IMG/VR virus record: IMGVR_UViG_3300047189_000039
Coordinates: 1-25,273 of that record
Source of the DNA: a virus
Length of the DNA stretch: 25,273 nt
Direction: 5' to 3' (one strand)
The notes under the pieces are model-generated. The model had not been told where the DNA came from. It searched no databases and saw only the letters and a program-made list of their open reading frames with translations. The translations under genes were made by a program, and so were the position numbers. Within the stretch, counting starts at the first letter, position 1; every line of letters begins with the position of its first letter. Shown here piece after piece: positions 3,001 to 25,273 of this stretch.

Positions 3001-4885
3001 CAAAACTTCCTGTAACAGGAGTACCAACATTTGGCATATCAACATTAATATTACCTGAAACACCACTACCATTTGTAATCGTTAGTGTTGTTCCAGTAGA
3101 TGTAATAGAGCGAGTTACACTAGTACCAGTTCCTGTAATAACATAAACACCTGTGGTGGATGTATTTGCAAGTGCAGTTAGATCACTATCAACTGGTTGA
3201 AAGGCAACCGCATGATATCCATCAAGTAGGTCAGCATTAAACCCAGTTACTAATTGACCCTGTGCGTTTGCTCCTAGAATAAATGGTGCTTGTGTTGCTG
3301 TTGGAGCAAAAGAATGTTGAGCAGTAATTATTCTTGGATTGCTAATGTGAACATATTGTAAATGATCATCAGTTTCTAGTCCCCCTAAAGCAGTATGGTC
3401 GAGTGCAGCAGTAATTGGTAGAGCACGATAATCAACAATATGTCGTAGGGCCGCGTGTGGAGTGTTTGTATATGTTGTACTTGTTTGGAACAATAAACAA
3501 TATAAAGGTCTAAGTCCTGATAGTTCTAAACCAAACATTAATTGAAGATCTGCAAAGGTATTATCTACGATAGCATCTCCAATAGTTGCACTATTGTGTA
3601 TACCAACCATACCAATAATTGGGTTTGATAAAGCAGCAGTTCCAATAACCCAAGTTGCGACATAATAGTCTTCGCTTGCATCTGCTAATACCCAGTTACT
3701 TCCATTAAAATAATTATACTGGATACGACTTGTGCCCTGCTTTACAGGAAATGTTGTTGCGGCATCTATAAATGGATAAGATCCAAGCTTATATGTTAGA
3801 TCTAGTTGAGCAGGCCCATTTAAGATTTGCTCATACGGATTAGTTGGAGTATTAGAATTTGTAATATCACTACTAAGTAATAGTCCATTTGTAATATTGA
3901 TTTGAGCATCAACATCACTTGATCCATTGCCATTTAATGTATATCCTGTTATATCTAATCCATTAATATATGTACGACCACTTACCTTTGACAAATAGTC
4001 TGATGTAGCATAATCCATCGAAATGCCATGACGTTCATCAGTCATCTGTTGTACTGTTGGTGTTGGTGTTGCATAATAGACAATAGCCGAAACTGAAATT
4101 TGACTTGATGAATCAAGTATTGTACCGGCAACGTATTGAAGTGTTGCTGTTGCATCATAATATATGATATAGATGCCTGTTGTATTTGGCAATACTATTG
4201 TTTCTGTTGTCTTAAAATAACGGGTACCACCAACATAAAGTGTAAAGTTTGTTCCTACTGGTGCTATTGTAAACGTCTGTGTAACTGGATTAAATGAAAT
4301 TGTAGATTGTGTTCTATTAACAAATCCTGATGGTGCAAATTGATCTTTTGTTTCCTGTGTATCAATCAACTGTTGCCAAGCACTACCGGTCCAATACTCA
4401 TTTACCCACAAATCTGTATTGTGACGTATTTGTCCAATTGTTGGTGATCCGGGACGCTGTGCAGTGGTTCCGCTTGGAATTACAACACCACCAGTTCCAG
4501 GAAGAGTTGGATCTGTAGCAATAGCAACTGTTGGATTGCCGGATACTCCATCTCCATCAGCAACATCAATTTCATTTGATGTTCCCATGATTGTTCTTGT
4601 TGCTGATGTGCCAGCACCAGTAACTGTATACAGCCCAGTTGTAGCAATGTTGTTAAGTGCATTTAGCACTGCGGTTGTTACTTGTATTAATGTCCAGTTG
4701 TAGTCGCCTGAACCAGATTTAACATATGTCTTATTTGTTCCAGCATATAAAACAACAGATCCAATGGGAGCTTCGTACCCGGAGCCCCCACCATCAGATG
4801 GATCAAAAGATAGGCTTGTCACTAAAACAAGATCGTTTAGTGACAAGCCATCAGGTACATCAAATGCTAGATCAATATTTGCCAT
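1..4885 (-). CDS. Giant tail fibre / adhesin, 5' part (open at left edge)
   Basis: One uninterrupted minus-strand frame runs from ATG at 4885 to the window edge, about 1628 residues without a stop, so the C-terminus lies outside. AAGG lies about 10 nt before the start. Domains seen: an N-terminal P-x-I-G-Q...W-x-G-x-x-W module (about residues 150-180); an L-G-G-L-x-x-D-D-H-x-Q-Y fibre motif near 500; A-L-G-Y-T-P-V-N-K-A-G-D-T-M-S-G near 650, followed by a K-G-Y-V-D...G-L-x-W module; a second A-L-G-Y-T-P near 920; five copies of a roughly 45-residue T-T-G-x-Y-x-I-T-G-x-G-T-S...G-x-x-G-N-P module; an A-N-G-G-T-G motif near 1270; and from about 1330 a Y-V-A-K-Y-G-N-D-T-x-G-N-G-S start typical of right-handed beta-helix (pectate-lyase-like) domains. 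These are hallmarks of host-binding phage fibres. Which surface receptor it binds cannot be told. Confidence 0.85.
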   Translation of the reverse strand, partial: MANIDLAFDVPDGLSLNDLVLVTSLSFDPSDGGGSGYEAPIGSVVLYAGTNKTYVKSGSGDYNWTLIQVTTAVLNALNNIATTGLYTVTGAGTSATRTIMGTSNEIDVADGDGVSGNPTVAIATDPTLPGTGGVVIPSGTTAQRPGSPTIGQIRHNTDLWVNEYWTGSAWQQLIDTQETKDQFAPSGFVNRTQSTISFNPVTQTFTIAPVGTNFTLYVGGTRYFKTTETIVLPNTTGIYIIYYDATATLQYVAGTILDSSSQISVSAIVYYATPTPTVQQMTDERHGISMDYATSDYLSKVSGRTYINGLDITGYTLNGNGSSDVDAQINITNGLLLSSDITNSNTPTNPYEQILNGPAQLDLTYKLGSYPFIDAATTFPVKQGTSRIQYNYFNGSNWVLADASEDYYVATWVIGTAALSNPIIGMVGIHNSATIGDAIVDNTFADLQLMFGLELSGLRPLYCLLFQTSTTYTNTPHAALRHIVDYRALPITAALDHTALGGLETDDHLQYVHISNPRIITAQHSFAPTATQAPFILGANAQGQLVTGFNADLLDGYHAVAFQPVDSDLTALANTSTTGVYVITGTGTSVTRSITSTGTTLTITNGSGVSGNINVDMPNVGTPVTGSFVKITTDAQGRVSATTAVTSSDITTALGYTPVNKAGDTMSGVLNMGSNVITNLAGPSIPSDAATKGYVDSIATGLIWQQPIQADGFLGNTATPPVTPTIGDAYIIDTGGNTGVWAGFAAGDVVEWVTGNVWVKVATSALNMRFGINFEQSPSSLVGAAVGNLNAIITIIGGSIGAWTYTTTAPSNNWALYVSNSLDDSFGIAYAYSTALTQWIPFSQSVTITAGAGLYYTGNTLNVGTASSSRIVINTDDIDLATTGVSPGTYTKLTVDAYGRATVGASISSSDVTTALGYTPQAQNTNLTALSGASSTGIYIITGSGTSAERTLVAPAAGITITNPAGIAGNPTFALANDLAAVEGLTTTGLSVRTATDAWTTVQLVAPAAGITITNPAGITGNPTFALAGTLASLQSLASNGIVTQYAANSLIARTISGTSNQVTVTNGDGVLGNPIISIPTVFVAPGSIEATTVFKKGTLSYVDTNIFSAFQASQNSYLQSIIQNTHGGSTASVDWIVSNDLGTATTYYGDFGMNSSGYTGSGILSAPNTVYLTSTSGDLAIGTITSNAIHFVINGGTTDAFGIGTSGQWNIAGSAGTLNQVFTSGGASAAPSWSSISGLAVTSFSAGTTGLTPNSATTGAITLAGTLGVANGGTGLTATGTANQVLGVNTGATALEYKTITAGGGIVVTPTAGAITISTRGSGTPTNVIYVAKYGNDTTGNGSWDTPFLTVKKGVTIASGLANSSNQVTVVIVDGTYQEVNPITLSNEYVIVQGQYDHAVYVQPTVNGQPLFSLSSGTANKGPFLGTMTLHGITNGGTPYSSVSGGNLVQINGDGYFELDQINVHEGYVGINYGNGTISAGQQVEWSRSDANNNYITISGQSSATFNGQITNIVLGSLGAIAIQAVGSGSLIMDNFEIVGNLTTPTGTGISTAGTVSILSSGGYVRGFTTGLLAAGSSSIRMLSSFFSNNTNDFNQSSSTAVIQLQGVFDKTKCLITNGSSVALNYI
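1803..1876 (-). repeat. Direct repeat copy A inside the fibre gene
   Basis: A 74-bp unit that recurs 156 bp away at 1959-2032 with a single visible mismatch (T at 1829, C at 1985). It encodes the L-V-A-P-A-A-G-I-T-I-T-N-P-A-G-I module of the fibre. The near identity, including third codon positions, implies recent duplication or gene conversion. Confidence 0.85.
1959..2032 (-). repeat. Direct repeat copy B inside the fibre gene
   Basis: Partner of 1803-1876. The period of 156 bp equals 52 codons, so copies can be gained or lost without breaking the reading frame. Confidence 0.85.
4813..4849. repeat. Perfect 14-bp inverted repeat in fibre codons 13-24
   Basis: Arms GGCTTGTCACTAAA (4813-4826) and TTTAGTGACAAGCC (4836-4849) flank a 9-nt loop. 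In the minus-strand mRNA the hairpin begins about 37 nt after the fibre start codon. No T-run follows on the minus strand, so it does not look like an intrinsic terminator. Confidence 0.9.
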
Positions 4886-4916: not shown

Positions 4917-6275
4917 TTATAGTGCAAAGTAGTTTGTTGCTACACGACGAACAGATACATCGAATGCATTTGTTGCCTTAGCTTGTACTTCCATCAGTGG
5001 ACCCGCTGTAATTACAACCTGTACACTAAATCCTGTTGGACCTCCACTTACCTTAATATCAGCATACTTTGTATAGTCAAGACCAGTTGATGGAGCTGCT
5101 GCTGTATTCCAGTCAACAACTGCGTGAACTTCAACTGCACGTACCTTATTAGGTGCTGCATTATCACGAACCATGACCATCCACTTAACTTCTTGGATAC
5201 CATCTGTTCCATTTGGAGTAATCGTATCAACAGTTACGTATGTATTAGCAGTCTGATTTGTTAGTGTCTGCTGAAAGTTATTGAATACAAGTGAGTTGCT
5301 CAAACTCTGTAAGTTTGCCGTAACGGTTGTATTTGTAAGGTATGGACCTGTGAAGCTATTAGTTCCAAGGCGATTATTCAGGTCATTTAGTGCTGATGTG
5401 ATTGTTAATGTACCACCTGAAAACCATGCCATATCCGCTGTTAGCGCATAGTTACCTGTTGTATTGGTAATGTCACCATCACCAAGCGTTAAGTCCAATG
5501 CCGAAATAGCAGCTTCTAGTGAAGTACCTGTAATAACGGCATTGTTTGTTCCGTACGTTGGCATAACTGGACCAAGTGATGGCTTACCAATGAATGAATT
5601 GATATAACCAATTTCTATGTTACCAGTTGCACTTGACATCTGCACCCATGCAAATGAAATGTCGTTGTATACCCACTGCGTATCAGTGTTTAGTGTTCCG
5701 TTGGTTACAAGAACAGCATCGCCCTTTGTTAACGTGTTATTTTCGTAATATGGACCAGGGTTTAGTGTGGGATCATCAACATACTTGACAACAACTGGAG
5801 CAGTACTTACAACTACACCAACTTGATTGCCTACTGTTGGTGTGCCTGTAAATGGAGATACAAAGATAAGACGATCACCAACAAGTAGTGTGTACCCATC
5901 GACAACACCCGCAGCCGCATTGATTGCTGCTACTGCTGCTACTAAGCTAGCATATACAGCTGTTACTGCAACAGCTACTGGCTCGCGCCACGACAAACCT
6001 TGTACAAGGGCGTCAATATATGTTTTTGACGTAACCTGTACCCAGTCAGCGTTTGTGCCTGCTGATACTGAAAACTTTGTCCAAAACTGATTCTTGTTAC
6101 TATCTGCAACTGTGTACATGAAAGTTGAACCAATAGGTGCATCAATTTCTTCGGGGAAGTTAACTGCATCTGAACCTGGAAGGTGTGAACCTTGTAGCAC
6201 AAATGCATTGCTTGACAAGTCGCTAGCGACAACATCAACACCTACGTATGTGCGAAATAAATCTAATGAACTCAT
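4917..6275 (-). CDS. Virion structural protein, probable fibre or fibre-associated adhesin
   Basis: A 452-residue acidic, Thr/Val/Asn-rich protein with no membrane segment beyond an alanine-rich stretch near 100-125. Residues 84-97 (K-T-Y-I-D...G-L-S-W-R-E-P) match a module also present near residue 670 of the adjacent giant fibre (K-G-Y-V-D...G-L-I-W-Q-Q-P), so the two genes share an ancestral fibre domain. A further region near 195-215 (G-D-A-V-L-V...W-V-Y...W-V-Q) resembles the W-rich modules of these fibres. ATG at 6275 is preceded by AGGAG seven bases upstream, and a GATAAATA late-promoter element lies 37 bases upstream. The giant fibre starts only 31 bases beyond its stop, so both are probably co-transcribed. 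The exact role is not known. Confidence 0.7.
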   Translation of the reverse strand: MSSLDLFRTYVGVDVVASDLSSNAFVLQGSHLPGSDAVNFPEEIDAPIGSTFMYTVADSNKNQFWTKFSVSAGTNADWVQVTSKTYIDALVQGLSWREPVAVAVTAVYASLVAAVAAINAAAGVVDGYTLLVGDRLIFVSPFTGTPTVGNQVGVVVSTAPVVVKYVDDPTLNPGPYYENNTLTKGDAVLVTNGTLNTDTQWVYNDISFAWVQMSSATGNIEIGYINSFIGKPSLGPVMPTYGTNNAVITGTSLEAAISALDLTLGDGDITNTTGNYALTADMAWFSGGTLTITSALNDLNNRLGTNSFTGPYLTNTTVTANLQSLSNSLVFNNFQQTLTNQTANTYVTVDTITPNGTDGIQEVKWMVMVRDNAAPNKVRAVEVHAVVDWNTAAAPSTGLDYTKYADIKVSGGPTGFSVQVVITAGPLMEVQAKATNAFDVSVRRVATNYFAL

Positions 6276-10589: not shown

Positions 10590-12149
10590 TTAGATGAACG
10601 GCATTGGCGCGTCATTTTCGCTGTTTTCGTTGTACTCGATATTGCCACTGTCCCACTGTTCGAAACCAGTTGTTGAATACAACTTGTCAAACGCGTTCTG
10701 GTCATATGTAGCAATTTCCTCAACGAGGCGAATGACGGTTAGTGTAGCTGCAATACAATCTGAAGTGCTACCCGGAAGATGATCATAAGCACCACGTGTA
10801 CGAACGAATGTTTTCAACTCCTGCAACAAAATTGGAGATGTAATTTGAATATTATCCTTTTCAAACATTTCCTTGAAGTTGACACAAGCTTTCATCTTCG
10901 AACGAGCTGTAGTGAAGAATCCTCTCTTGCCCTTTCCTTCTTCAGAAACGAACTCCGAGTTTGTAGGTGAGTTTTCGTCAGCTTCGAACAACGAAATGAT
11001 ACCCTCACCAACACCGTTATTTTCAACACTGAAGTAAACCATTGTTCCCTTATCTTCAAGGAACAACAAGATGTTCTTCAACACTTTGTACGAATCGTTT
11101 GGAGACATCGTATTAGAACGGTACTCTGCAACCTGTCTCATTGATGGGAAGTGATAGATTGTGATGACGGTAAAATCCTTGCCAGTACCTGTAGCAGGAT
11201 CAACTCCAACAAGGTATGTTGCACCCGGTTTAATATCGTACCAGAATACTACATCGCCAACGACAAATCGTGGCTTGACATCTTTTAGCTTTAGAGTAAT
11301 CTCTGCAAGCTTAATTGAGTTAACCAATAGAGCTTCGGAGGATAGGAAGTCACATTCGTATTCCTGCTTCCATTTCTGTTCGCCAATACGACCGATTGTC
11401 TCTTCTTTGAACTTTCCATCACGTCCGGGTGGCTCATCCCACTTAACTTCAATTGGAAAGAAACCGTTTGCCTTGACCATTGCGCCACGCCAGATCTGAG
11501 CGAAGATATCAATATCTCCGTTAGGCGTAGATGTCATAATACAATCACCACCAGTCGATAAGGTAGGCTCAATCGAAGTCCAGAATTCTTCCTGGATGTT
11601 CTTAGCTACGTGGGCAAATTCGTCCAAGTACAAGAGTGAAATTGACAAACCTCTACCTGAATTTTCTGACGTTGCTTCCGAAATGATACGTGTGCCGTTG
11701 TCGAAACCAACACTGTGCTTATTCCATCCATCGTCCTTGATACCAGGCTTTAACCACATGGGAATGTTCTCGTAACCAAGACGAATACGATGGATCATTT
11801 CCATAGCATTGCTGTTCTTATTTGAAGCAATTAGAACGGTCTTATCACGATGGAAGCAAGCGTACCAAAGAAGATATGCACCTGATGTTACGGATTTACC
11901 TGTCTGACGAGCGGACAGTACCACCGTAAAACGGTTGTTCTGATATCCACGCAACATGCGTTCTTGGTAAGGACGAAGACGGAAAGGAACAATACCACGA
12001 GTGGGATGTTGAATCTTTACGTACTTGTCAATGAAGTACACAGGATCGAGTTTGCACTTCTTGAGCTCCAATAGTTGCTCAAAAGTATACTCGTGTTGGA
12101 CATTAGGTCCTTTTATGTTGGGATTTTTGTTACGAGGAATTAGTGCCAA
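10590..12149 (-). CDS. gp17: Terminase large subunit (DNA packaging ATPase/nuclease)
   Basis: A 519-residue packaging motor. The ATPase domain has Walker A S-A-R-Q-T-G-K-S (79-86), Walker B L-L-Y-L-D-E (172-177) and coupling motif T-S-T-P-N (206-210). The nuclease domain has the RNase H-like acidic triad D317 (V-G-V-D-P-A-T-G), E376 (S-V-E-N-N-G) and D464 (S-T-S-D-C-I-A-A). Length is below the 610 residues of T4 gp17 but complete for the family. The start is TTG at 12149: an in-frame TAA lies four codons upstream and no in-frame ATG or GTG occurs before residue 37. GGAGG sits only one base before that TTG, so the true initiation site is ambiguous. The gene overlaps the HNH gene by ten bases. 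Confidence 0.95.
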   Translation of the reverse strand: MALIPRNKNPNIKGPNVQHEYTFEQLLELKKCKLDPVYFIDKYVKIQHPTRGIVPFRLRPYQERMLRGYQNNRFTVVLSARQTGKSVTSGAYLLWYACFHRDKTVLIASNKNSNAMEMIHRIRLGYENIPMWLKPGIKDDGWNKHSVGFDNGTRIISEATSENSGRGLSISLLYLDEFAHVAKNIQEEFWTSIEPTLSTGGDCIMTSTPNGDIDIFAQIWRGAMVKANGFFPIEVKWDEPPGRDGKFKEETIGRIGEQKWKQEYECDFLSSEALLVNSIKLAEITLKLKDVKPRFVVGDVVFWYDIKPGATYLVGVDPATGTGKDFTVITIYHFPSMRQVAEYRSNTMSPNDSYKVLKNILLFLEDKGTMVYFSVENNGVGEGIISLFEADENSPTNSEFVSEEGKGKRGFFTTARSKMKACVNFKEMFEKDNIQITSPILLQELKTFVRTRGAYDHLPGSTSDCIAATLTVIRLVEEIATYDQNAFDKLYSTTGFEQWDSGNIEYNENSENDAPMPFI

Positions 12150-12715
12150 TCCTCCATAAACTTACAACGCTTTGCTGAGTTCTCGTCTTTTGTCAAAATT
12201 TGTAGATTATTTTCGCTATGCAATCCACAAACTTTTTTGCTTTGAAGAGGAATAATGTGATCTACCTCTCTTGGTATTCCATCTTGCTGTTGAAGACGAG
12301 CAGCTTGTTCATAGATCTGTTCAATAGCGTCTTGGTTAGCCCACAATGGCGTAGCTAATTCAATATTCCTATTTCGTTTGTTAGCTTGCAATCTATTCAG
12401 CGCAGCTCCTCGAGGCGAGCGTCTATACTCAGTCATTTTAGCTAGTCGATGTTCTTTATTGTTGTGGAAATACAATAACGTCTTTTCAATAATTTGATCT
12501 CGACGTTGCTGATAGTATACTTTGGCTCGTTTGCTTTGTTTTTCTTTGTGACCAGCATAATAGCGCAGCGCAGCTGCTCTCTTCTTTTTAGTACTTTGTG
12601 TACTGTTGTGGCATAATTTACAACGAGAGCTCAACCCACCAGGTCCTTCTTTAATATTAAAGAACTGGTCTCGTGGTTTATTGTCTTTACATTTTGAACA
12701 AATCTTAGTTAGCAT
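12140..12715 (-). CDS. HNH endonuclease with N-terminal zinc-binding motif (homing-type)
   Basis: A 191-residue protein. C6-x-x-C9 and C32-x-x-C35 form an N-terminal zinc site; residues 40-115 are strongly basic and helical (DNA binding). The HNH core lies at 151-182: V-D-H-I-I-P-L with H153, then G-L-H-x-E-N-N-L-Q-I-L and N179. Such enzymes are commonly mobile in phage genomes and often sit between or within packaging genes. Here it separates a PD-(D/E)XK-like gene from the large terminase. Its ribosome site is poor (AGG one base from the ATG), and a degenerate GCTAAATA lies seven bases upstream, so expression may be low or coupled. Its last nine codons overlap the terminase start region. 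Confidence 0.85.
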   Translation of the reverse strand: MLTKICSKCKDNKPRDQFFNIKEGPGGLSSRCKLCHNSTQSTKKKRAAALRYYAGHKEKQSKRAKVYYQQRRDQIIEKTLLYFHNNKEHRLAKMTEYRRSPRGAALNRLQANKRNRNIELATPLWANQDAIEQIYEQAARLQQQDGIPREVDHIIPLQSKKVCGLHSENNLQILTKDENSAKRCKFMEDWH

Positions 12716-14363: not shown

Positions 14364-16268
14364 TTAACTTCCCGATGGTGTAGGTGTAGGTATTGGTACG
14401 ATTTCTTGTTGTGGAATTTGCGATTGAGTTTTTACAGTTGCTAGTGCATTTGTTGCAGTCTGCTGAGCAGCAATAACTTGTTCTTGCGATGTAGCGGCAG
14501 CTGTTGCAGTAGCAAGGTTCAGGTTAATCTGCGACGCAGCATTGTTAGCTGCTGATGATACATTCGTGATGTTTGCAGTATTGTTTGCACTTGCTGGTGT
14601 TGAGCCAGTAACCGGATCAAGTGTAGCATTTGTTCCAGATGTAGGTGTTGATGGATTCGCTGCAAGCGATGTAACGGAACTTAGTGCTGACATAGATGCT
14701 GTTGCTACTGATGTTGGTGTCTGATTATTGCCGTTCTGGTTTGGCACCGTTCCCGTTCCACCACCACCAACAACTGGTGCTACAGATGCCATTCCTGTCA
14801 AGTTTGAACCAGTTGCTGTAGTATATGTTGGCGTTGCTTGATCGTTTGCTGCAATTACTGATCTCAAAATACCCTTGTCAGATAATATCGTTGATTGACC
14901 AGAAGCCAACTTAATTCCATCTCTTTGATCCCAGTTTGGTACCGACGTGTGTGGATCTACACCAAGAGGACGCAATCCACCGGTTGTGAGATCGTGAAGA
15001 TTATGACGTGTTGGAGCGTCTTGATTGAATACCTGAATACCTGGAGCAATGAATACACTATCGTAGCTAAACGTAAGACTAACTTCTGTGCCTTCACTTG
15101 AAGCCATATCAAGATCGTCGAGATCCATCTTCGTGATTTTTGGATTATAAAAGTGCATTTGATTCATCAATGTTCCTGCACGATAAACATGATAAATTGA
15201 AATGCGACGAAGAATGTTTCTTATACCTGTGCTTCCATACGCACCCAACGAACCTGCATAAAGTTGACCTAACGTATTTGGCCACGATGCTGAAATAGGC
15301 GAGTTACCACTTTCAAAACCCATTCCACCACCAACTAGATTGTATGCATTTAGTGGAGCTTGTTGCTGTAACTCAACATCGATATTTGCGATTGGGCTTA
15401 TTAGTTTGAGGTATGTAGTGTAAAATTGAAATGCATTATTGCGATCGTCATCGAGGAACTTCATCGTGATTGGTTGATATACAGTCTTCTTTGCAACTTT
15501 AGTTCTGAAGTTGTACATGTTGATATCTTCATACTCAAAATCAACTGTAGGACGAGTTGTAGACTTGATTACGAATGCTGGATCAATGCCTGGACCTTTC
15601 TTCAATACCTCTTGAAATTCAGGATCAAACTCAAACTCAACAACGAACAAAAACTTATACTTAGGTGCATACTTAATCAAATCTGTTGCATAGTTACCAA
15701 CACCGCATGTTTGTCCAAACTGTGATGCTTGTGGTTGTGTTGCAGGAGTTGCTCCTGTGAACAAGGATGAAATTAACGCTGTACCATTTTGGAAAGCCGA
15801 GAATGCAGCTGGAATATCTTGTGGTCTAAACTTACCTTGACTAACACTATTGTATACTTGCGATGCACCATTCAAAGCATTATTGGCGACACTTGGATTG
15901 AATTGACCTGCTGTGTTCAGTTGGTTCTGATCGATACCAACTGCTTTTAGAACCCACGCCTGTCCATTACCAACTGCAGCTTGTGGAATCTGACTCATAC
16001 CGCCAATACGAACAGCATTTGAAACACCTGCAAGGTAGCTTAATCCTTGACCAACGACACCACCACCAACATTATTTGCTAGGTTAGCAAACGCACCAAC
16101 AACACCGAGCGTTGATGAAAGTGCTAACATTTGTGCTTGAGATTCTGTTTGTGCTCTCTCAAGAACACTTGGGCACCCTGTAGCGTGAGCAACTCCAAAT
16201 ATATCGGGGCTTTTGTTTAGGATTGTTCCTGCAAAGTTAAACAGGTTGAGTCTTGGATCACTTGCCAT
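14364..16268 (-). CDS. Tube-fold tail protein, probable baseplate-tube junction (gp54-like)
   Basis: A 634-residue protein in three parts. Residues 1-195 are Ala/Gly/Ser-rich with helical stretches (A-L-S-S-T-L-G-V-V-G-A-F), as in the N-terminus of T4 gp54. Residues 197-430 carry a tail-tube-like domain (Y-K-F-L-F-V-V-E-F-E-F...Y-Q-P-I-T-M-K-F-L-D-D...N-P-K-I-T-K-M-D-L-D-D...V-S-L-T-F-S-Y-D). Residues 430-634 are a low-complexity Ala/Thr/Ser/Asn tail ending in a Pro/Thr stretch. It follows gp19 directly but has its own terminator-promoter boundary, CATAAATA and AAGGAA. T4 gp54 has 320 residues, so both ends are extended. It could instead be a second tube or tail-tip protein. Confidence 0.6.
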   Translation of the reverse strand: MASDPRLNLFNFAGTILNKSPDIFGVAHATGCPSVLERAQTESQAQMLALSSTLGVVGAFANLANNVGGGVVGQGLSYLAGVSNAVRIGGMSQIPQAAVGNGQAWVLKAVGIDQNQLNTAGQFNPSVANNALNGASQVYNSVSQGKFRPQDIPAAFSAFQNGTALISSLFTGATPATQPQASQFGQTCGVGNYATDLIKYAPKYKFLFVVEFEFDPEFQEVLKKGPGIDPAFVIKSTTRPTVDFEYEDINMYNFRTKVAKKTVYQPITMKFLDDDRNNAFQFYTTYLKLISPIANIDVELQQQAPLNAYNLVGGGMGFESGNSPISASWPNTLGQLYAGSLGAYGSTGIRNILRRISIYHVYRAGTLMNQMHFYNPKITKMDLDDLDMASSEGTEVSLTFSYDSVFIAPGIQVFNQDAPTRHNLHDLTTGGLRPLGVDPHTSVPNWDQRDGIKLASGQSTILSDKGILRSVIAANDQATPTYTTATGSNLTGMASVAPVVGGGGTGTVPNQNGNNQTPTSVATASMSALSSVTSLAANPSTPTSGTNATLDPVTGSTPASANNTANITNVSSAANNAASQINLNLATATAAATSQEQVIAAQQTATNALATVKTQSQIPQQEIVPIPTPTPSGS

Positions 16269-17028: not shown

Positions 17029-19173
17029 TTAGACTGAAGGCGAAGCACCTGCTGTATTAAGCGAAGCACCTGTTGCAACAATCGTGATTGGGATGTAAAT
17101 GAATTCCGCTGCCTTTACAGGCTTCAAAGCTACATCGATAATCAACGAATTTGCGTCAACAACCGCTGGTGTGTTGTTTGAACTATCGCAAACCGTTGCG
17201 AAGTCATACAAGCCACGTTGTGTGACCAAATTACCTAGGAAACTATCAACCATTGTCTTCAAGTTATTTTGGGTCAAAGTATCGTTTGGCTCGAATACGA
17301 ATGCCAATGCTGACTTACGTAGTGAACGTGCGATGTACTTAACTAGACGCGAAACATTGATACGGTCGAGTGCTGTTGCAGTCGTACCTGTCGATGTTTT
17401 TTGTCCCCAAACAACGAAGCCGTTACCTGGGAAGAACGCCAGTGGGTTAATGCCACCAGCTGCTGTGTAAGCGTACATTACATCGCGCTGTCCCTGGTTT
17501 GGGTGCAAGCTAACGAACGTTGTAGCCGTTCCAGGTGTTCCCGTGAAGTAGCCAATATCATTGACACCCGAGATCTTACCACGGTTCAAACCTGCTGGTG
17601 CAAACCACTCGAAAGATACGTTGTCGCTAAATGCCATCGTTGTTAGTGCTTGTGCACTTGATGGAACCATAATCGTTGTACCGTCAAGGTTTGTTGTCAA
17701 AATGTGTGGGTAGTAGTAGCAAATGTTACCGGCAACGTCAATAACACGTGCAACTGAAGCTGCCCATGTTGAAAGCTGATCTGGATTATCGCCCATTGGT
17801 GTATCACCAATTACGAGAACTTCTGAGTTCAAGTAGTTGACAACAAGTGCCTGCATATTCGTTGCACACTCTGGATAACCAGGTGTTAGAATCAAGTTGT
17901 ATTCAATTGTTTCAGAACGAATGTCTTGGTTGCTATTGATAACTGCATTCAATGCCTGAACAATAGCTGCGCGGCGTGATGCATCATCTGTACCAAGAGA
18001 TGTCTTAAACAAGAAGTTATTTGTCCACTGGAATTCATCACCAGCTTGTGTTAGCAAGTTACCTGCTTCTGCTGCTGTGAATTGGCCTGGAACCGTACCA
18101 CCCTCAAGTGTGTTGAACCATTCGTTCAACAAGCCAAGGATACCAATAAACGTACCGGTTTGTGGCTGTGTGAACCCGTTTGCATATACAGCAAATGGAG
18201 TCAATGTCTGGTCGTTCATGAAGTCTTCTTGCAACGTTGTTGGCGTTGTTGGAATACCAAATGAGTAATCTTGCCAGATGAATGCCGTTGCCTGAACAAT
18301 CAATGCATACAAGCTCGTGTGGTCAATTGTTACTGCATATCCATTCGTACCTGGAACTGCTGTGTTGAATTGAACAAAGCTAGGATCAACTGATGCAAAC
18401 AATGGATTTGCACCCGAATCTGCAATCGAGATTGTTGATGATGAACCAACCGTTGCGCTAGTAACGACAATGTTACCAGCAATTAATGAAGCTGTTCCAA
18501 ATACTCCAAGTGTTGCATTAATCGATGTTAGCAATTGAGCAACCGTCAAACCGTTAATTGCAATTGACAATGGGTGTGCAACAGTATCGATAGTAATCGT
18601 TGCTGTGTATGGTGTTGCTGGTAGGGCGGTGATAACTGTTGCATTTGTCAATAAACCACCATAGTTAACAGTCTGTGTTGCAGCTGTTGATGGTGATGAA
18701 GGTGACAATTGGTTGTTAACGTTGTACTGAGCAATCCACTGGTTGACCAAATTTTCAAGAACCGAGGTAGCAACATCAATGTCGCCTTGCCATGTTGCCT
18801 GAATGTCTGCAAAATTTGTATCCAAGTTAACATTTGCGCGGACCGTGTAAGCGAAGTTACCTTGACCTAGGAACATATTCAACGCTGCTAGACCATATTC
18901 GTTTGTGGAATCACCGTTGTTTGGCTGACCGTTTGTAGTATTGAAGTAAGGAATACCAAACGTTGATTGGCTCTGTTGTAGAGAGGTGATTGTGCGAACA
19001 ACACCATACTCTTGGGTACCAGGAGCAATAGGGCTGCTTGGGGTCGTTGGGCTAATTGGCTTATTCTCGCGAGTTGCAAGAATAATTAGTGGAACGGTTG
19101 GGGCTGACGCAGGAACAAAATAGCTCTTGTCAGTAACTGTTACACTTACACCTGGGCTAACTAATGTTGCCAT
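17029..19173 (-). CDS. gp18: Tail sheath protein
   Basis: A 714-residue protein against 659 for T4 gp18. The N-terminus M-A-T-L-V-S-P-G-V-S-V-T-V-T-D-K-S is the typical sheath start; the C-terminal domain contains I-N-V-S-R-L-V-K-Y-I-A-R-S-L-R-K-S-A, and F-V-F-E-P-N-D and F-I-Y-I-P-I-T-I strands, as in contractile sheaths. The middle (about 140-290) is a Thr/Ala/Val-rich insertion with I-N-G-L-T-V-A-Q-L-L-T-S-I, probably a surface protrusion domain. ATG at 19173 follows AAGGAG, and a perfect TATAAATA lies 63 bases upstream. The sheath drives contraction with gp19, gp15 and the baseplate. Confidence 0.93.
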   Translation of the reverse strand: MATLVSPGVSVTVTDKSYFVPASAPTVPLIILATRENKPISPTTPSSPIAPGTQEYGVVRTITSLQQSQSTFGIPYFNTTNGQPNNGDSTNEYGLAALNMFLGQGNFAYTVRANVNLDTNFADIQATWQGDIDVATSVLENLVNQWIAQYNVNNQLSPSSPSTAATQTVNYGGLLTNATVITALPATPYTATITIDTVAHPLSIAINGLTVAQLLTSINATLGVFGTASLIAGNIVVTSATVGSSSTISIADSGANPLFASVDPSFVQFNTAVPGTNGYAVTIDHTSLYALIVQATAFIWQDYSFGIPTTPTTLQEDFMNDQTLTPFAVYANGFTQPQTGTFIGILGLLNEWFNTLEGGTVPGQFTAAEAGNLLTQAGDEFQWTNNFLFKTSLGTDDASRRAAIVQALNAVINSNQDIRSETIEYNLILTPGYPECATNMQALVVNYLNSEVLVIGDTPMGDNPDQLSTWAASVARVIDVAGNICYYYPHILTTNLDGTTIMVPSSAQALTTMAFSDNVSFEWFAPAGLNRGKISGVNDIGYFTGTPGTATTFVSLHPNQGQRDVMYAYTAAGGINPLAFFPGNGFVVWGQKTSTGTTATALDRINVSRLVKYIARSLRKSALAFVFEPNDTLTQNNLKTMVDSFLGNLVTQRGLYDFATVCDSSNNTPAVVDANSLIIDVALKPVKAAEFIYIPITIVATGASLNTAGASPSV

Positions 19174-19267: not shown

Positions 19268-19314
19268 TTTTCCTTGAATTACGGTTTATTGATGTCAATA
19301 TTATTCAAGGAAAA
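19268..19314. repeat. Long inverted repeat with nested hairpin at the gp15 stop codon
   Basis: Arms TTTTCCTTGAAT (19268-19279) and ATTCAAGGAAAA (19303-19314) are perfect complements over 12 bases. Inside is a second hairpin, TATTGA-TG-TCAATA (19287-19300). The gp15 stop codon lies at the edge of the arm. No proper T-run follows on either strand. Confidence 0.8.
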
Positions 19315-20088
19315 CAGGTCTATATAAGTTGCGCCTTCGGCATTAAGTGCGTCAAGAACACTGTACGAATCACTGAAGTTCGTTGCTGATGAGACAACAG
19401 CCAAACGGACCTTGATGTTATCGATGTAGTTCTGACGGAAATTTGCGGGACCAGAAAGATAGAAGATCACTTCAAAAAACAACACCGACTGGATGACACG
19501 TCTGTCAGCACCAGCAGGAAAATTCTCTTCCCAATTGATGTTCGTCATTTCGACGGTTGTTATTTGGGTCATATCAAGCGGATCATCACTCGTCTGAATT
19601 TGTACGCTAGGGTCAAATAGAATCATGATTTGTTCCATGATCTGGTGATGTTGAAGTGTGTTGCTTGCATATACACTTAACTCAAATACCGCACGATATG
19701 GGACTGGTTGAATCTGACGATAGACACCAACGTTGTTTGGAAATGGTTGACCGTTGTTCAATGCAACAGTTTGACGGCGAGTTGCACCAACACCTTTTCT
19801 CTTGTCAGGTGCTTGTGCAATACTACGCAAGTATGCACTCATTGCTGGAAGACGCAAAGGCTTGTTTTGTGTTTGATCGCCCTTGATCCAAGCAACAACT
19901 CTGTCTCTGCTGCCGTACACAACAGGAACTTTGATTAGACGTGCTGGAAGATCAGTACTAGCACCAACTTTAACTTGGAGTTCAGAAAAGATAGCCATAA
20001 ACTGAACGCAGTAGCGTTTTAACTGTTCATCAAAATAGTAGTCGCTATCGTCGCAAAATGTTTCTGCTGGTGGTGATGTATCTGTCAT
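19279..20088 (-). CDS. gp15: Tail terminator / sheath stabiliser
   Basis: A 269-residue protein against 272 for T4 gp15. The pattern matches: Y-F-D-E-Q-L-K-R-Y-C-V-Q-F-M-A-I-F-S-E-L-Q-V-K near 18-40, a V-P-V-V-Y-G-S-R-D-R segment near 54-63, Y-R-A-V-F-E-L-S-V-Y (133-142) and I-M-E-Q-I-M-I-L-F-D-P (150-160). In T4 the gp15 ring caps the completed tail and binds the gp13/gp14 neck. The ATG shares one base with the gp14 stop (TAATG), so the two are translationally coupled. It lies between neck and sheath genes, as in T4 (13-14-15). Confidence 0.85.
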   Translation of the reverse strand: MTDTSPPAETFCDDSDYYFDEQLKRYCVQFMAIFSELQVKVGASTDLPARLIKVPVVYGSRDRVVAWIKGDQTQNKPLRLPAMSAYLRSIAQAPDKRKGVGATRRQTVALNNGQPFPNNVGVYRQIQPVPYRAVFELSVYASNTLQHHQIMEQIMILFDPSVQIQTSDDPLDMTQITTVEMTNINWEENFPAGADRRVIQSVLFFEVIFYLSGPANFRQNYIDNIKVRLAVVSSATNFSDSYSVLDALNAEGATYIDLFSLNNIDINKP

Positions 20089-21878
20089 TATAGTATCTCG
20101 GGATCATTTGGTGGATCGCACTGAGGAATTGGTTTTTCAATAACCGCATGCTCTTTGCGAATGCCGCTTGAGTGAATAAACTCTTCAAGCGTTGGTTTTC
20201 TTGGGTTGTATATTTCACGCCAGTCGGTTTCAAGATATACCCACTGATTCTTTGCTGCAGAGTATCTATACAAACGAGCCGGGATACCTTCTGAAGGACC
20301 AATATATGTCATTCTGTGATAGGCTTTATCTTTTGCATTTTGTGTTGGTGGAAGCGTAGGACCTTCTGTAAATGGTGCATTGTTTGGAGGCATTGCATCT
20401 TCGCCATAGATTCCTTTCTTGTTCAAACTAATCTTTGATAGTGCACCTAGAGGCATGCCTTGTGTGGCAGCACTTGCTTTTTGTTCATCTGAAAACTCTT
20501 GGATGTAACCAGAGGTTTCACGACCATTTTCAGGTACGTTATCAAGAGCTGTTGTCTTGATGAACGTTGCAATGTCAGAAAAGTCTTGGAAGTTAGGATT
20601 ACGACCATTTCCTTGATTCATCAAACCATCGCCGCCCCTTACTGGTTGCTCTGCAAGATCACCAAAGATGTCTTGTGTCTCTTCAGAAGCGTATGCAGGC
20701 TGAGCTGTGACCTTGAGTAACAAAGGAACCCACGTTGGTGTATAGCCATTTGCGGCCCATGTTACATCCGTAACTTCCATCCATTTGTAAACTGGAGTCA
20801 AAGATGATGAGTATTGTGTCTCACTTGGAAGACGAACAATATCACCAATGACAAGTGGACGACCAAGAATTGCGACACATGATGTGAAGCTAATCTGTAG
20901 GTTGTATGTCAATGCAGGAAGCTCAATACCAAAGCGGGAGAGTTCTGTACTTGCTTCAACAATGCTGTAATAGCCCTTCATCAAAACTGGATCTGTTTCA
21001 TACGCGCGATCTCTATTCTCCAACAAAATTTTGTCTTGGATATTACCAACGTTGATCGTTTCATAGTTGTGGTACAATTGCAAAGCCTGAACGCCCCAAT
21101 AGTCGGTTGTTCCAGTTCCACCTGTTTGAGGTGTTGTTCCGGGTATGCAAGGATCTACAGTGCCACCATTAAATTTTGTTGGACGTAGACGCCAGTATCT
21201 TGCTGGAGCTGAATGCTTCATCAAAATCGTATTGAACTTGTCATCGTCTGGTAGTGTTGCTAACCCAGCACCATACCACTTACAGTTGTCGTTTGAGTAT
21301 TCGAGACGAACTTGCGTAACACGATTCTTCTGGTTAGCTGATTGCTTAATAGCAAATGCTGTGATGTGCTTGTTAATTTGAGTGTCAATACCGTACATGC
21401 GGCGTGTCTGGTCGAGCGTCTTGATATAACCAAAATCGTACCCTAAAAAGGCGGATGAGGTTACTCCTGACCCAATTTGGATAGAATGCCACTCAGAGAC
21501 ATATGTCTCAAATGCATTAGAAGCGGGATATACCGGTGCAAAACCGCCCGAAATCGCTTGTCCATGACCAGTTGCATCTACCAGCTTACATTGTTCGTGG
21601 ACACCTAGGAGCTTGTATACGTAGACGTCTGCTCCAGCTATATTGATCGATTCGGTAATCATCGAATCTTGAACGCAAGCATCATTATTTTGGGTTAGTT
21701 GAAACGCATACGACTTCAAATCAACTGTCGTTGGAGGACAGTCAAGTGCTATTCCTGGACGGAATGGAACATAGCCATTTGGATTTGGTGGGTTCTCAGG
21801 TCCTGTGTTGAAGTCTGGACCTGTTGTACTACCAGATGCCAAAGAATATGGATTTGGGCATGCTGGATTATTTGCCAT
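20088..21878 (-). CDS. gp14: Neck protein gp14-like, with inserted discoidin-like (F5/8 type C) module
   Basis: A 596-residue protein from ATG 21878 (GGAGAA upstream; an in-frame ATG at 21896 lacks a ribosome site). T4 gp14 has 256 residues. Residues 57-100 resemble the gp14 start (Q-D-S-M-I-T-E-S-I-N-I-A-G-A-D-V-Y-V-Y). The gp14 pattern resumes at 277-410 (L-S-R-F-G-I-E-L-P...G-R-P-L-V-I-G-D-I-V-R-L-P...Y-K-W-M-E-V-T-D-V). Between them, 105-275 looks like an F5/8 type C domain: P-A-S-N-A-F-E...E-W-H-S, L-G-Y-D-F-G, V-T-Q-V-R-L-E-Y-S-N-D-N-C-K-W, A-R-Y-W-R-L-R-P, with W-G-V-Q-A-L-Q-L-Y at the end. Such domains bind glycans or lipids. Residues 410-596 form an unrecognised C-terminal extension. 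Confidence 0.7.
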   Translation of the reverse strand: MANNPACPNPYSLASGSTTGPDFNTGPENPPNPNGYVPFRPGIALDCPPTTVDLKSYAFQLTQNNDACVQDSMITESINIAGADVYVYKLLGVHEQCKLVDATGHGQAISGGFAPVYPASNAFETYVSEWHSIQIGSGVTSSAFLGYDFGYIKTLDQTRRMYGIDTQINKHITAFAIKQSANQKNRVTQVRLEYSNDNCKWYGAGLATLPDDDKFNTILMKHSAPARYWRLRPTKFNGGTVDPCIPGTTPQTGGTGTTDYWGVQALQLYHNYETINVGNIQDKILLENRDRAYETDPVLMKGYYSIVEASTELSRFGIELPALTYNLQISFTSCVAILGRPLVIGDIVRLPSETQYSSSLTPVYKWMEVTDVTWAANGYTPTWVPLLLKVTAQPAYASEETQDIFGDLAEQPVRGGDGLMNQGNGRNPNFQDFSDIATFIKTTALDNVPENGRETSGYIQEFSDEQKASAATQGMPLGALSKISLNKKGIYGEDAMPPNNAPFTEGPTLPPTQNAKDKAYHRMTYIGPSEGIPARLYRYSAAKNQWVYLETDWREIYNPRKPTLEEFIHSSGIRKEHAVIEKPIPQCDPPNDPEIL

Positions 21879-22215
21879 CTTTGTTCTTCTCCGCATACGA
21901 CTTAAACGATTCAGGCCCCTTTGTCTTGTATTCCATTTTCTTCAGACGGGAATAGTAATCAGGTAATTCACTAAGGTGATCCTTAGTGATATTCTTTGCT
22001 GTACGCTTATCGCTTGTATGTTCTGTTTCTACTTCAATTCCCATAGCAAGTTCTTGTGGGTCAAAGTGACTATCAGTTACGTCATCATGCTTACCAATAG
22101 TAATCTTCTTGCCCTTGTACTCAACTTCCTCCTCTTCACGATCGCACTTGCAGGCATGTAGTCCGCAAATTGGGCAAATCATTTCATTAAGTTGTACAAG
22201 TTCAAAGAGTTTCAT
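21868..22215 (-). CDS. Small Cys-rich zinc-ribbon-like phage protein between neck genes
   Basis: A 115-residue charged protein. C14-P-I-C17-G-L-H20-A-C22-K-C24 is a compact zinc-binding candidate. Residues 45-95 read F-D-P-Q-E-L-A-M-G-I-E-V-E-T-E-H-T, then A-K-N-I-T-K-D-H-L-S-E-L-P-D-Y-Y-S-R-L-K-K-M-E, a signature I recognise from small conserved phage proteins of unknown function (DUF5661-like). It starts two bases after the gp13-like stop and overlaps gp14 by 11 bases, so it is coupled to both neck genes. It may be an assembly factor or part of the neck; no function is established. Confidence 0.7.
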   Translation of the reverse strand: MKLFELVQLNEMICPICGLHACKCDREEEEVEYKGKKITIGKHDDVTDSHFDPQELAMGIEVETEHTSDKRTAKNITKDHLSELPDYYSRLKKMEYKTKGPESFKSYAEKNKDGK

Positions 22216-22217
22216 AA

Positions 22218-25200
22218 TTATCCCATTACTATTGAGCCATAAGCTCCGTAGCTCTCAACGTCCTGAACGATTAACTCATCTAGTTCCGTGTATAGCATAT
22301 CACGGATTTCCTTAGCCTGTGTTCTTAGATCCAGTGCATTTAATGTAATCGCACCACTTGCACCTGGTAGGTTGGCATACTTACCACGAATCTGAGCAAG
22401 TATGTCCATAGCCTGTGCTTGTGCAAACTGTTGAATCCAACGCTTTGCATATCTATCTACGAAAATTTCTTGTTCGGTCTTTTCTAATGTGACATCAAGC
22501 AAGATACGTTCTGGACGTGTGAATGCCTGGTGGAATGAGATACGACGCTTACTTTCGTCCCATACGTATGTTAAGCGAGTTGCAAACATAATTTCCAACT
22601 GCTCAACATATGATGATACAATGTGGTAGCTCAACAAATCAAACGTTCCCATGTTATACAAGTGTTGTAGAACAACCTGTCCATAAACACCAGATCCCAT
22701 TGCTTGTGACAAGAATGCAGAAGTGAATCTATAGCCTGCCATAACTGTAACGATCTTATTGTAGTCAACTGCCTTGTTAGCTAGAACATAGTGTTGGTTA
22801 TAAGGCTTAATATCCAAGAAGAAGCACGCACGTTTAACCGCCATTGAACTTCTCTGGCGGAACGTTTCTAATGCGTCAGATACAGCACGACTTAGTTGAT
22901 CATCTGTCAACTCAACTGTGATCGTTGGATAACCAAGTTCTGTACGAACAATCTTCATAATGTTGCGACGTTCATCTGGTGTTCCGTCGGTTCCAACACC
23001 AAGTTCATCATATGATGGTGTACCACTTACGCCGTCTTGACCACCAGATGGAACTAGAATATTTGCTGTAGGCTTTAGATTTGACCATAAGAATGCACCT
23101 GGATTGATTGGTAGTGCACGATAAGGAATTCCTCTCTCGAGTCCACCACCGTTGTAACTAACCCATGCATCAAGTGGCCCAACACCATTTCCAAGATTAC
23201 CACTAAAGTCGCCAAAATAATCTAAGCCCGAATACAATCCATCGTAGTAGAAACCATCAGCAATAGGAACATCAAACAAACTTCTGCCGCCTGGTGCGCC
23301 GTATGGATAGTATGCATTTTGTGTACCAACATCATTGATGTAGTCAGCTGCACCTGTTCCGTATACAACCAAGCTACTTGCCATGTAAGGGATCCCGTTT
23401 GGAATTGGAATCATGATTACATAGTTACTTCCACAGCCTGTTGTTACAAATACCAAGTTGCCTTGTGGATCAAACTGACAGTAAACAGCTGGCTTGATCC
23501 ATATCCACTGCGTACCATCCCATTGATATAGCTTGCAAGTTATAGTATTGAACCAGTTCTGTCCTTTCTTCAATGTTGGTGCTATTGTTGTGAATGGAAC
23601 ATTTACCCACTTCGTACCATCCCAACTGTTGAGTGTATTAGGAATTGATGTGTTGAACCACAACTGTCCTACTGGCAATGAGTTTGGTGGATTGATCGAA
23701 ACAATTGGTGAAATTGGATTCCATGCACCCACTGTTGGAGTTCCCCAGATATACCAGAGATTGGTTGTTGTATTGTGCCAAACTGTTCCAATAGTAGGAA
23801 CTGTTGGATCTGTTGGAAAGTTAATAAATGTAACTGGTTCCCATGTACTACCATTCCATACTGATAGGACACCCGTGATTGGATTATACCAAACAGAGCC
23901 CGTTATAAGTGTTGGCACACCAAACGGATCGGTTCCTTGACTAAAGTAAGGTGTAACAAGATTCCACGTGCTGTGGATTATATCCCACTGCTTGAGCATT
24001 CCTGGAGATGTTAAGGAATCATCAAACCATAGACCACATGAGGTAACATCTGTTGGATCTGTTGGCCATACTAATACGGATGTTACATCCCATCCTGTAT
24101 TTGTAAGATTGCGTTGTGACAAAACTTCTGTTGTTGGATTGTACCATAGTGTACCTGCAACAACAGCATTTATTGGAACAAGAGCTGGGTCTGTTGTTGA
24201 GTTAATAAATGGTTGTACTGCCCATGCTGGGGCAATCGTTCTTGTATAGAGAACGCTATTCGTTAGGTCAAACCAGTATGAACCAGCTGTGATCACATTA
24301 GGTGCTACTGGCCATGTTACTGCATAGGCTAGAACCCACTGCGTTCCATTCCAAGTATAAAGTGTTGAGTTTGCTGTATCGTACCAGAATGCACAACCAA
24401 CTGGTGCTGCAGGACACGAAGGATCTGTTAGTGAGATAAATGTTTCACTACCAGGAACTTCGCACCAAGTATTTCCACAACGTGAAAATGCGTTAGTACC
24501 ATTCCACCACCACGTACCTGGATGTGGTTGTGTTGGATCAATTGCATCTGTGATAAATGGAACAACAACCCACGTTGTTCCATTCCATTGCGATAGAACA
24601 TTTGTGGTAGGATTTAACCAGTATGTACCAACAGGAACAAGGGATGGATCAGTAGGCTGAACAATAACACCTGTTGTGTTAGGAACCGTTACCCATGCTG
24701 TGCCATTCCATTGTGACAATATACCTGTTGTAGGATCATACCAATATGCTCCGATAATAGGTGCCGTAGGTGCTGTTGTTTGTACAAGAACAGTATTAGG
24801 TGCGGTTACCCAAGCACTTCCATTCCAGATAGAAATAATTCCTGACGTAGGATTATACCAGAAAGCACCAACAATTGTGGTTACTGGTGAAGAGCTTTGA
24901 ACAAACGTATTGGGTGGAACTACCCAGGCTGTTCCGTTCCACTGCATCAATGTTACTGTTATGGTATTGTACCAGAACGTGCCTGTTGTTGGAGGTAGAG
25001 GCGGTATAGTGCCAACAGTAGTGTTTGCTACTGGGATCCATGCTGTGCCATTCCACTGTGAGAGAACACTCGTTAGCGTATTAAACCAATACTGGTTCAT
25101 AACTGGATTTGTAGGTGCTGTGGTTTGGCTAGTAACTCCAATTACAGCAATAAGAGATATTCCATTCCACATCCATAGCTTTGAACCATCCCAGTAATAG

Positions 25201-25273
25201 ATTCCATCACCTGGAACAACAGGCGATACATAACAACCAATATTGCTGCTTTGGACTGCAAGCTGTTTATTGA
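22218..25273 (-). CDS. gp13: Neck protein gp13-like with long N-terminal W-N-G repeat region (open at right edge)
   Basis: The frame is open across the right edge: 33 further in-frame codons precede the first ATG in view (25172), so at least 1017 residues are visible and the start is outside. The C-terminal part (from about 255 residues before the end) follows T4 gp13: R-R-N-I-M-K-I-V-R-T-E-L-G-Y-P-T-I-T-V-E (gp13: L-G-A-P-I-I-N-V-E-L-T-P-D-Q), V-D-R-Y-A-K-R-W...L-A-Q-I-R-G-K-Y, and L-P-G-A-S-G-A-I-T-L-N near the end. T4 gp13 has 309 residues. The upstream part is tandem repeats (see 23490-25273), joined by a Gly/Tyr-rich linker. In T4, gp13 and gp14 form the neck that joins head and tail and carries the whiskers. 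Confidence 0.75.
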   Translation of the reverse strand, partial: NKQLAVQSSNIGCYVSPVVPGDGIYYWDGSKLWMWNGISLIAVIGVTSQTTAPTNPVMNQYWFNTLTSVLSQWNGTAWIPVANTTVGTIPPLPPTTGTFWYNTITVTLMQWNGTAWVVPPNTFVQSSSPVTTIVGAFWYNPTSGIISIWNGSAWVTAPNTVLVQTTAPTAPIIGAYWYDPTTGILSQWNGTAWVTVPNTTGVIVQPTDPSLVPVGTYWLNPTTNVLSQWNGTTWVVVPFITDAIDPTQPHPGTWWWNGTNAFSRCGNTWCEVPGSETFISLTDPSCPAAPVGCAFWYDTANSTLYTWNGTQWVLAYAVTWPVAPNVITAGSYWFDLTNSVLYTRTIAPAWAVQPFINSTTDPALVPINAVVAGTLWYNPTTEVLSQRNLTNTGWDVTSVLVWPTDPTDVTSCGLWFDDSLTSPGMLKQWDIIHSTWNLVTPYFSQGTDPFGVPTLITGSVWYNPITGVLSVWNGSTWEPVTFINFPTDPTVPTIGTVWHNTTTNLWYIWGTPTVGAWNPISPIVSINPPNSLPVGQLWFNTSIPNTLNSWDGTKWVNVPFTTIAPTLKKGQNWFNTITCKLYQWDGTQWIWIKPAVYCQFDPQGNLVFVTTGCGSNYVIMIPIPNGIPYMASSLVVYGTGAADYINDVGTQNAYYPYGAPGGRSLFDVPIADGFYYDGLYSGLDYFGDFSGNLGNGVGPLDAWVSYNGGGLERGIPYRALPINPGAFLWSNLKPTANILVPSGGQDGVSGTPSYDELGVGTDGTPDERRNIMKIVRTELGYPTITVELTDDQLSRAVSDALETFRQRSSMAVKRACFFLDIKPYNQHYVLANKAVDYNKIVTVMAGYRFTSAFLSQAMGSGVYGQVVLQHLYNMGTFDLLSYHIVSSYVEQLEIMFATRLTYVWDESKRRISFHQAFTRPERILLDVTLEKTEQEIFVDRYAKRWIQQFAQAQAMDILAQIRGKYANLPGASGAITLNALDLRTQAKEIRDMLYTELDELIVQDVESYGAYGSIVMG
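23490..25273 (-). repeat. Tandem W-Y-N...W-N-G protein repeats, at least 14 units
   Basis: About 40-residue units of the form P-x-x-G-x-x-W-[YF]-[ND]-x-x-T-x-x-L-x-x-W-N-G-x-x-W-x-x-V, such as G-A-Y-W-Y-D-P-T-T-G-I-L-S-Q-W-N-G-T-A-W. Fourteen units can be counted, plus part of another at the right edge. Units near the middle diverge (one has R-C-G-N-T-W-C). The DNA is related but not identical between units, so the array is not a very recent expansion. Confidence 0.85.

Follow-up and report, generated by a model that had tools for sequence, protein, structure and literature searches.

Known neck whiskers and neck fibres are separate proteins docked on the neck. In phage T4, the fibritin-binding domain comprises residues 190–239 of the neck protein gp13 (PMC12270204), and the neck fibres of Anabaena phage A-1(L) (gp82/gp81/gp80) are bead chains of about 16 beads, ~100 nm in length (PMC10966104). 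The locus described here departs from these examples in that the adaptor gene itself encodes the presumed appendage. The open-licence literature that we searched yielded no description of an adaptor equipped with its own repeat arm.

A neck adaptor and a repeat array in one open reading frame

The DNA analysed (the window) is the entire viral record IMGVR_UViG_3300047189_000039, 25,273 bases long. Its minus strand shows a T4-type gene order of 13, 14-position, 15, 18 and 19, with the large terminase gene beyond. As the original prediction had described, the frame in the gene 13 position (22218–25271) is unbroken and leaves the window: its 1017 codons contain zero internal stops and run off the contig end. 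It divides as follows:

22218..25273, minus strand: neck adaptor of gp13 type, its N-terminal part a repeat array; 1017 aa frame, 5' end cut by the contig
23490..25232, minus strand: 15 repeats of ~36–46 aa, residues 14–594 (repeat profile; AlphaFold2)
22989..23489, minus strand: linker from array to adaptor, residues 595–761 (~165 residues), mostly with pLDDT below 50; no credible start codon with a Shine–Dalgarno site inside it
22221..22988, minus strand: T4 gp13-like head–tail adaptor domain, residues 762–1017 (profile, hhalign, fold), without the fibritin-docking insert

The same prediction held that the last ~255 residues follow T4 gp13, and both profile comparison and structure prediction bore this out. 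Residues 728–1001 match PHROG 211, 'head-tail adaptor Ad2', at E 3.5e-105, as does T4 gp13 (E 1.8e-43), which indeed has only 309 residues, and a profile of the adaptor domain and its relatives retrieved the solved T4 gp13 chains at E 5e-16. By hhalign, the domain is colinear with T4 gp13 (98.5%), and the best Foldseek matches of the AlphaFold2 model are the T4 gp13 entries 9lu7 and 9mkb (E 3.5e-9). VIA scored T4 gp13 at Z 12.5 over 191 residues (rmsd 16.1) and at Z 12.3 over 115 residues (rmsd 4.8); portal adaptors, among them those of SU10 and T7, came next. Some of these rows have a large rmsd, which may be due to a hinge between subdomains; in T4, the swing domain shifts by about 90 degrees (PMC12270204). 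The top matches of the model have the adaptor fold, a helix bundle with an inserted beta domain, and the gene adjoins those for neck 2, gp15 and the sheath. These results identify the last ~256 residues as an adaptor of the gp13 type.

The unbroken fusion recurs in finished isolate genomes of the jumbo phages XacN1 (ORF268, 977 aa), RAS14 (976 aa) and CM1, as well as in IMG/VR contigs: two close relatives, L006 and L007 (87% and 82%, respectively, in the adaptor domain), and more than 20 others. In XacN1 the fused gene stands after the capsid gene, and in all three isolates the gp14-position gene comes next. Adaptor, array, linker and the N-terminal domain described below form a single open frame in all relatives but one: in L012, array and adaptor lie in frames of 774 and 281 codons, respectively, with an in-frame TAA (5376–5378) between them. 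This stop is either a real division of the gene or an error of sequencing. In L007, an ORF that looks endonuclease-like by eye (2544–3320) directly follows the fused adaptor gene.

A fibronectin-III-like domain at the N-terminus of complete relatives

The true start, beyond the window's end, could be located in L006, where the gene is complete (1250 aa, GTG start); by alignment to it, the window protein is short of about 241 N-terminal residues. The ~240 residues of L006 that are missing from the window hold a fibronectin-III (FN3)-like domain, then a small second domain. Among 15 members, five matched Pfam fn3 (best E 9e-5) and eight matched Pur_ac_phosph_N, an FN3-like family (best E 6.9e-5). 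A model of L006 residues 1–484 matched neogenin FN5 with a VIA Z of 9.3 (97 residues, rmsd 2.7), and nearly all of the VIA matches listed for this N-terminus were FN3. Profile and fold agree on an FN3 domain in the complete relatives; the window itself ends before it.

Composition of the repeat array

The repeats follow the consensus G-x-[YF]-W-[YF]-N ... L-x-x-W-N-G-T-x-W-V. An earlier count of at least 14 W-N-G repeats stands if units are meant, the profile finding 15, and fails if the literal triplet is meant, as WNG occurs nine times in the window frame. The looser motif W[ND]G occurs 12 times there; 2000 composition-preserving shuffles gave a mean of 0.46 and never more than 4. AlphaFold2 models the repeats as three-stranded beta units (pLDDT mostly 55–90 there) and assigns pLDDT below 50 to residues 594–746 of the linker region. 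For the whole window protein the confidence is modest (mean pLDDT 63.7, pTM 0.33), so the arrangement of the repeats and the disorder of the linker are to be read as predictions only.

Searches with the repeat against Pfam gave weak matches only at E ≤ 1 and no convincing family, and the array sequence had no match among solved structures at E ≤ 1. Foldseek on the array returned low-probability beta-propellers and ROS1/Sevenless, while about two repeats gave a weak fold match to a dextransucrase region (Z 2.6). Similar WNG-type repeats occur in fibre and minor tail proteins, such as gp94 of Arthrobacter phage Mimi and the tail fibre protein of Synechococcus phage S-N03, and structural matches of the repeat type are found in fibre-like viral proteins. 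Cysteines recur at set repeat positions (such as GN/GS.WC and SC.LW) in the arrays of L011, L013, L014, L012, L001 and the window; they are possible disulphides or cross-links. At the opposite end of the window (2–4885), a related short motif, GTTAQRPGSPTIGQIRHNTDLWVNEYWTGSAWQQL, occurs in a fibre-like ORF that runs off the contig and has at least 1628 aa.

Constant ends and variable repeat number

All 26 extended adaptors fall into one clade (97/96), apart from the plain adaptors of T4, RaK2, Atu_ph07 and the cyanophage type; the tree leaves the branching order of array and two-repeat forms within this clade unsettled. Across the clade, both protein ends are constant and the number of repeats varies: by repeat profile, there are 15 in the window and L006, 9–11 in most members and two in L021–L030. 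Repeats 7–13 of the window pair one to one with units 3–9 of the 11-repeat relative L016. The window's additional units lie at:

24675..25133, minus strand: repeats 2–5, extra compared with the 11-repeat relatives

These four are most like one another and repeat 6, a resemblance from which we conclude that they probably arose through local tandem duplication.

ORF401 of RsoM2USA (494 aa), already annotated as 'neck protein' (PMC8504454), may be a two-repeat member of the clade, and the BFVD match A0A8D4KEF7 (493 aa) could be such a member. The annotated neck protein ORF401 is not among the proteins listed for the RsoM2USA virion gel, and a scan of genome contigs with a two-repeat member gave no matches.

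Outside the array clade, one gp13-type adaptor (L071:7901–10780; IMGVR_UViG_3300037086_000398) has an unrelated N-terminal extension of ~700 residues that appears beta-helix-like by eye. Apparently, a neck adaptor has here been extended independently a second time, which suggests that the N-terminus of gp13-type adaptors is a permissive site for additions.

A possible discoidin-like domain on the protein at the gp14 position

The fused gene is followed by genes for further neck and tail components:

20088..21896, minus strand: gp14-position (neck 2 / stopper) protein, 602 aa; discoidin (F5/8C)-like at its N-terminus, with a probable gp14-like core behind
19279..20088, minus strand: gp15-like tail sheath stabiliser (PF16724, E 1.2e-34)
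17029..19173, minus strand: tail sheath, gp18-like (context gene)

The gp14-position protein matches F5_F8_type_C at E 2.3e-4 (21.7 bits, below the Pfam cut-off of 28.2) and discoidin chains at E 0.0014–0.06. It is conserved in its discoidin-like form across the clade, and T4 gp14 is only about half as large. In hhalign, its core aligned with a gp14 set at E 6.6e-5 (64%) when the gp14-position protein of L071 was included and at E 0.0011 (21%) when it was left out; against L071's protein alone, itself without an hhalign match to T4 gp14, the values were E 1e-5 (82%), and a reversed control gave E 0.22. On these profile comparisons, the neighbour is a probable gp14. Elsewhere in the window are another tail-tube-like protein (14364–16268; 634 aa), whose long C-terminal tail is rich in Ser, Thr and Asn, and, beside the terminase gene, an ORF that is endonuclease-like by eye (12140–12715).

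No support for the array as a substitute for fibritin

The original prediction also cast the array as a covalent replacement for fibritin whiskers, and comparison did not support this part as stated. Of nine gp13s compared, only those of T4 and leE, both with wac next door, have the docking insert. It is absent in the window and XacN1, and likewise in the plain gp13s of RaK2, Atu_ph07, S-RIM2, phiN3 and SenALZ1. Fibritin_C (PF07921), readily detected in T4 as a positive control (E 2.3e-34), was not found in XacN1, RAS14, CM1, Atu_ph07 or RaK2, nor in the L006 and L007 records, and a Pfam scan of the window frame gave no PF07921. With Fibritin_C missing from the array-bearing records searched, we rejected a fibritin identity for the array. 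An evolutionary swap of array for fibritin was rejected in the form proposed: RaK2 and Atu_ph07 are without insert, without Fibritin_C and without array, so the absence of fibritin is not coupled to the gain of an array. The array clade may never have had fibritin.

A candidate neck appendage and its alternatives

The core of the original prediction, that a neck subunit of gp13 type has a repeat array built into it, has good support. On balance, we think it probable that the window protein is the head–tail adaptor (neck 1 / Ad2, T4 gp13 homologue) of an XacN1-like T4-type jumbo phage, with a covalent N-terminal arm that acts as a neck appendage. By analogy with T4, the adaptor domain would dock on the portal as a dodecamer, and the linker would allow up to twelve arms, one for each of the ~12 ring subunits, to leave the neck surface. 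Each arm would then be an anchored appendage, a built-in whisker outside the neck, whose FN3 tip and aromatic-rich repeats might bind to the surface of the cell, to the tail fibres or to the virion itself; the number of repeats would determine its reach or avidity. The FN3 tip, the repeated beta units and the low-confidence linker of the models make it plausible that the arm projects on a flexible tether.

A surface-contact role for the arm is a reasonable analogy, since the repeat type occurs in fibre and minor tail proteins and the gp14-position protein bears a discoidin-like domain. Glycan binding, which had also been suggested, is putative and draws on the aromatic-rich, fibre-type repeats together with the discoidin-like domain of the neighbour. 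XacN1 has been reported without visible tail fibres or fibre homologues (PMC5852040), which, as a single observation, would leave more for neck arms to do; the text of that paper makes no mention of ORF268 (PMC5852040). We offer more tentatively the fuller picture of a neck ring turned into an adhesion device, with ~12 covalent FN3-tipped arms of 2–15 surface-binding beads, a number that tandem duplication would adjust, and with a discoidin-like domain on the ring below.

Alternatively, the array might not project at all and instead wrap the neck as a shield that stiffens the head–tail joint, like the Milano collar or the decoration proteins of phage 812. The Milano neck is sheathed in a protein collar that has no fibres and has an outer domain similar to glycan-interacting proteins (PMC10491603), and the phage 812 proteins are thought to reinforce the neck (PMC12886913). 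Several cysteines at fixed array positions would suit such a shell, and the repeats keep a one-to-one positional identity across relatives, as specific contacts would require. However, a number of units that ranges from 2 to 15 and a long low-confidence linker before the ring fit a tether better than a tight shell, and we regard this arrangement as unlikely.

Next in order, and also rather unlikely, is that the array guides attachment or folding of the tail fibres, as T4 fibritin does, with no host contact. The FN3 tip is the constant part of the arm and would fit a fixed viral partner, and the T4 neck whiskers bind the long tail fibres when these are in their 'up' state (PMC12270204). Against this stand the absence of the fibritin motif and the 11-repeat arm of XacN1, a phage reported to be without visible tail fibres and fibre homologues (PMC5852040).

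It is distinctly improbable that the two parts act separately, either because proteolysis frees the array or because the adaptor is also made alone. T4 encodes the head maturation protease gp21, L012 has its in-frame TAA between array and adaptor, and the array could be removed from the adaptor after assembly. Yet every relative seen except L012, in which the stop may be a sequencing error, keeps the array in frame. In 15 genes, we also found no recurrent internal ATG with a Shine–Dalgarno site ahead of the adaptor domain, whereas AGGA or AGGAG precedes most of the distal starts; a separate adaptor produced by an internal translation start in the linker was rejected for this reason. Finally, that an assembly or sequencing error at 22900–23490 joined two genes, an outcome named as fatal to the original prediction, has a negligible chance of being true: the window frame does reach the end of a metagenomic contig, but the same unbroken fusion in the genomes of three isolates and in over 20 independent contigs rules it out.

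Comparison with known systems

The preferred reading, an adaptor with a covalent arm, has its nearest counterparts in XacN1 ORF268 (BBA65416.1) and RAS14 WAX21693.1, which resemble the window end to end, with an FN3-like domain, WNG-type repeats, a linker and a gp13 domain, and share with it the neighbouring gp14-position gene. Identity to the window is about 34–35% over the whole protein and 40–43% in the adaptor domain; both have 11 repeats and a shorter linker, compared with the 15 repeats of the window. The architecture is conserved in a clade that includes cultured Xanthomonas and Stenotrophomonas phages, yet these two proteins are annotated merely as hypothetical. The natural variation in repeat number between constant ends provides a defined system for testing neck appendage function.

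T4 gp13 (neck 1, Ad2; PDB 9LU4, 9MKB) has the homologous adaptor domain and is likewise encoded ahead of a gp14-position gene and gp15. It has no N-terminal extension and binds separate fibritin trimers through its insert at 190–239, which the window protein lacks. The T4 fibritin (gpwac) whiskers are a neck-anchored appendage, as the window array would be if our reading is right, but fibritin forms trimers of its own that dock on gp13, whereas the window array consists of covalent, predicted beta repeats with no Fibritin_C. By description, the bead chain anchored at the neck of A-1(L) also resembles the window array; there, separate proteins form trimers on a ring that is pentadecameric and differs in fold, while the beads of the window are encoded in the adaptor gene. 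Finally, Mimi gp94 and the S-N03 fibre protein carry WNG-type repeats on tail and fibre proteins, whereas those of the window are on a neck adaptor.
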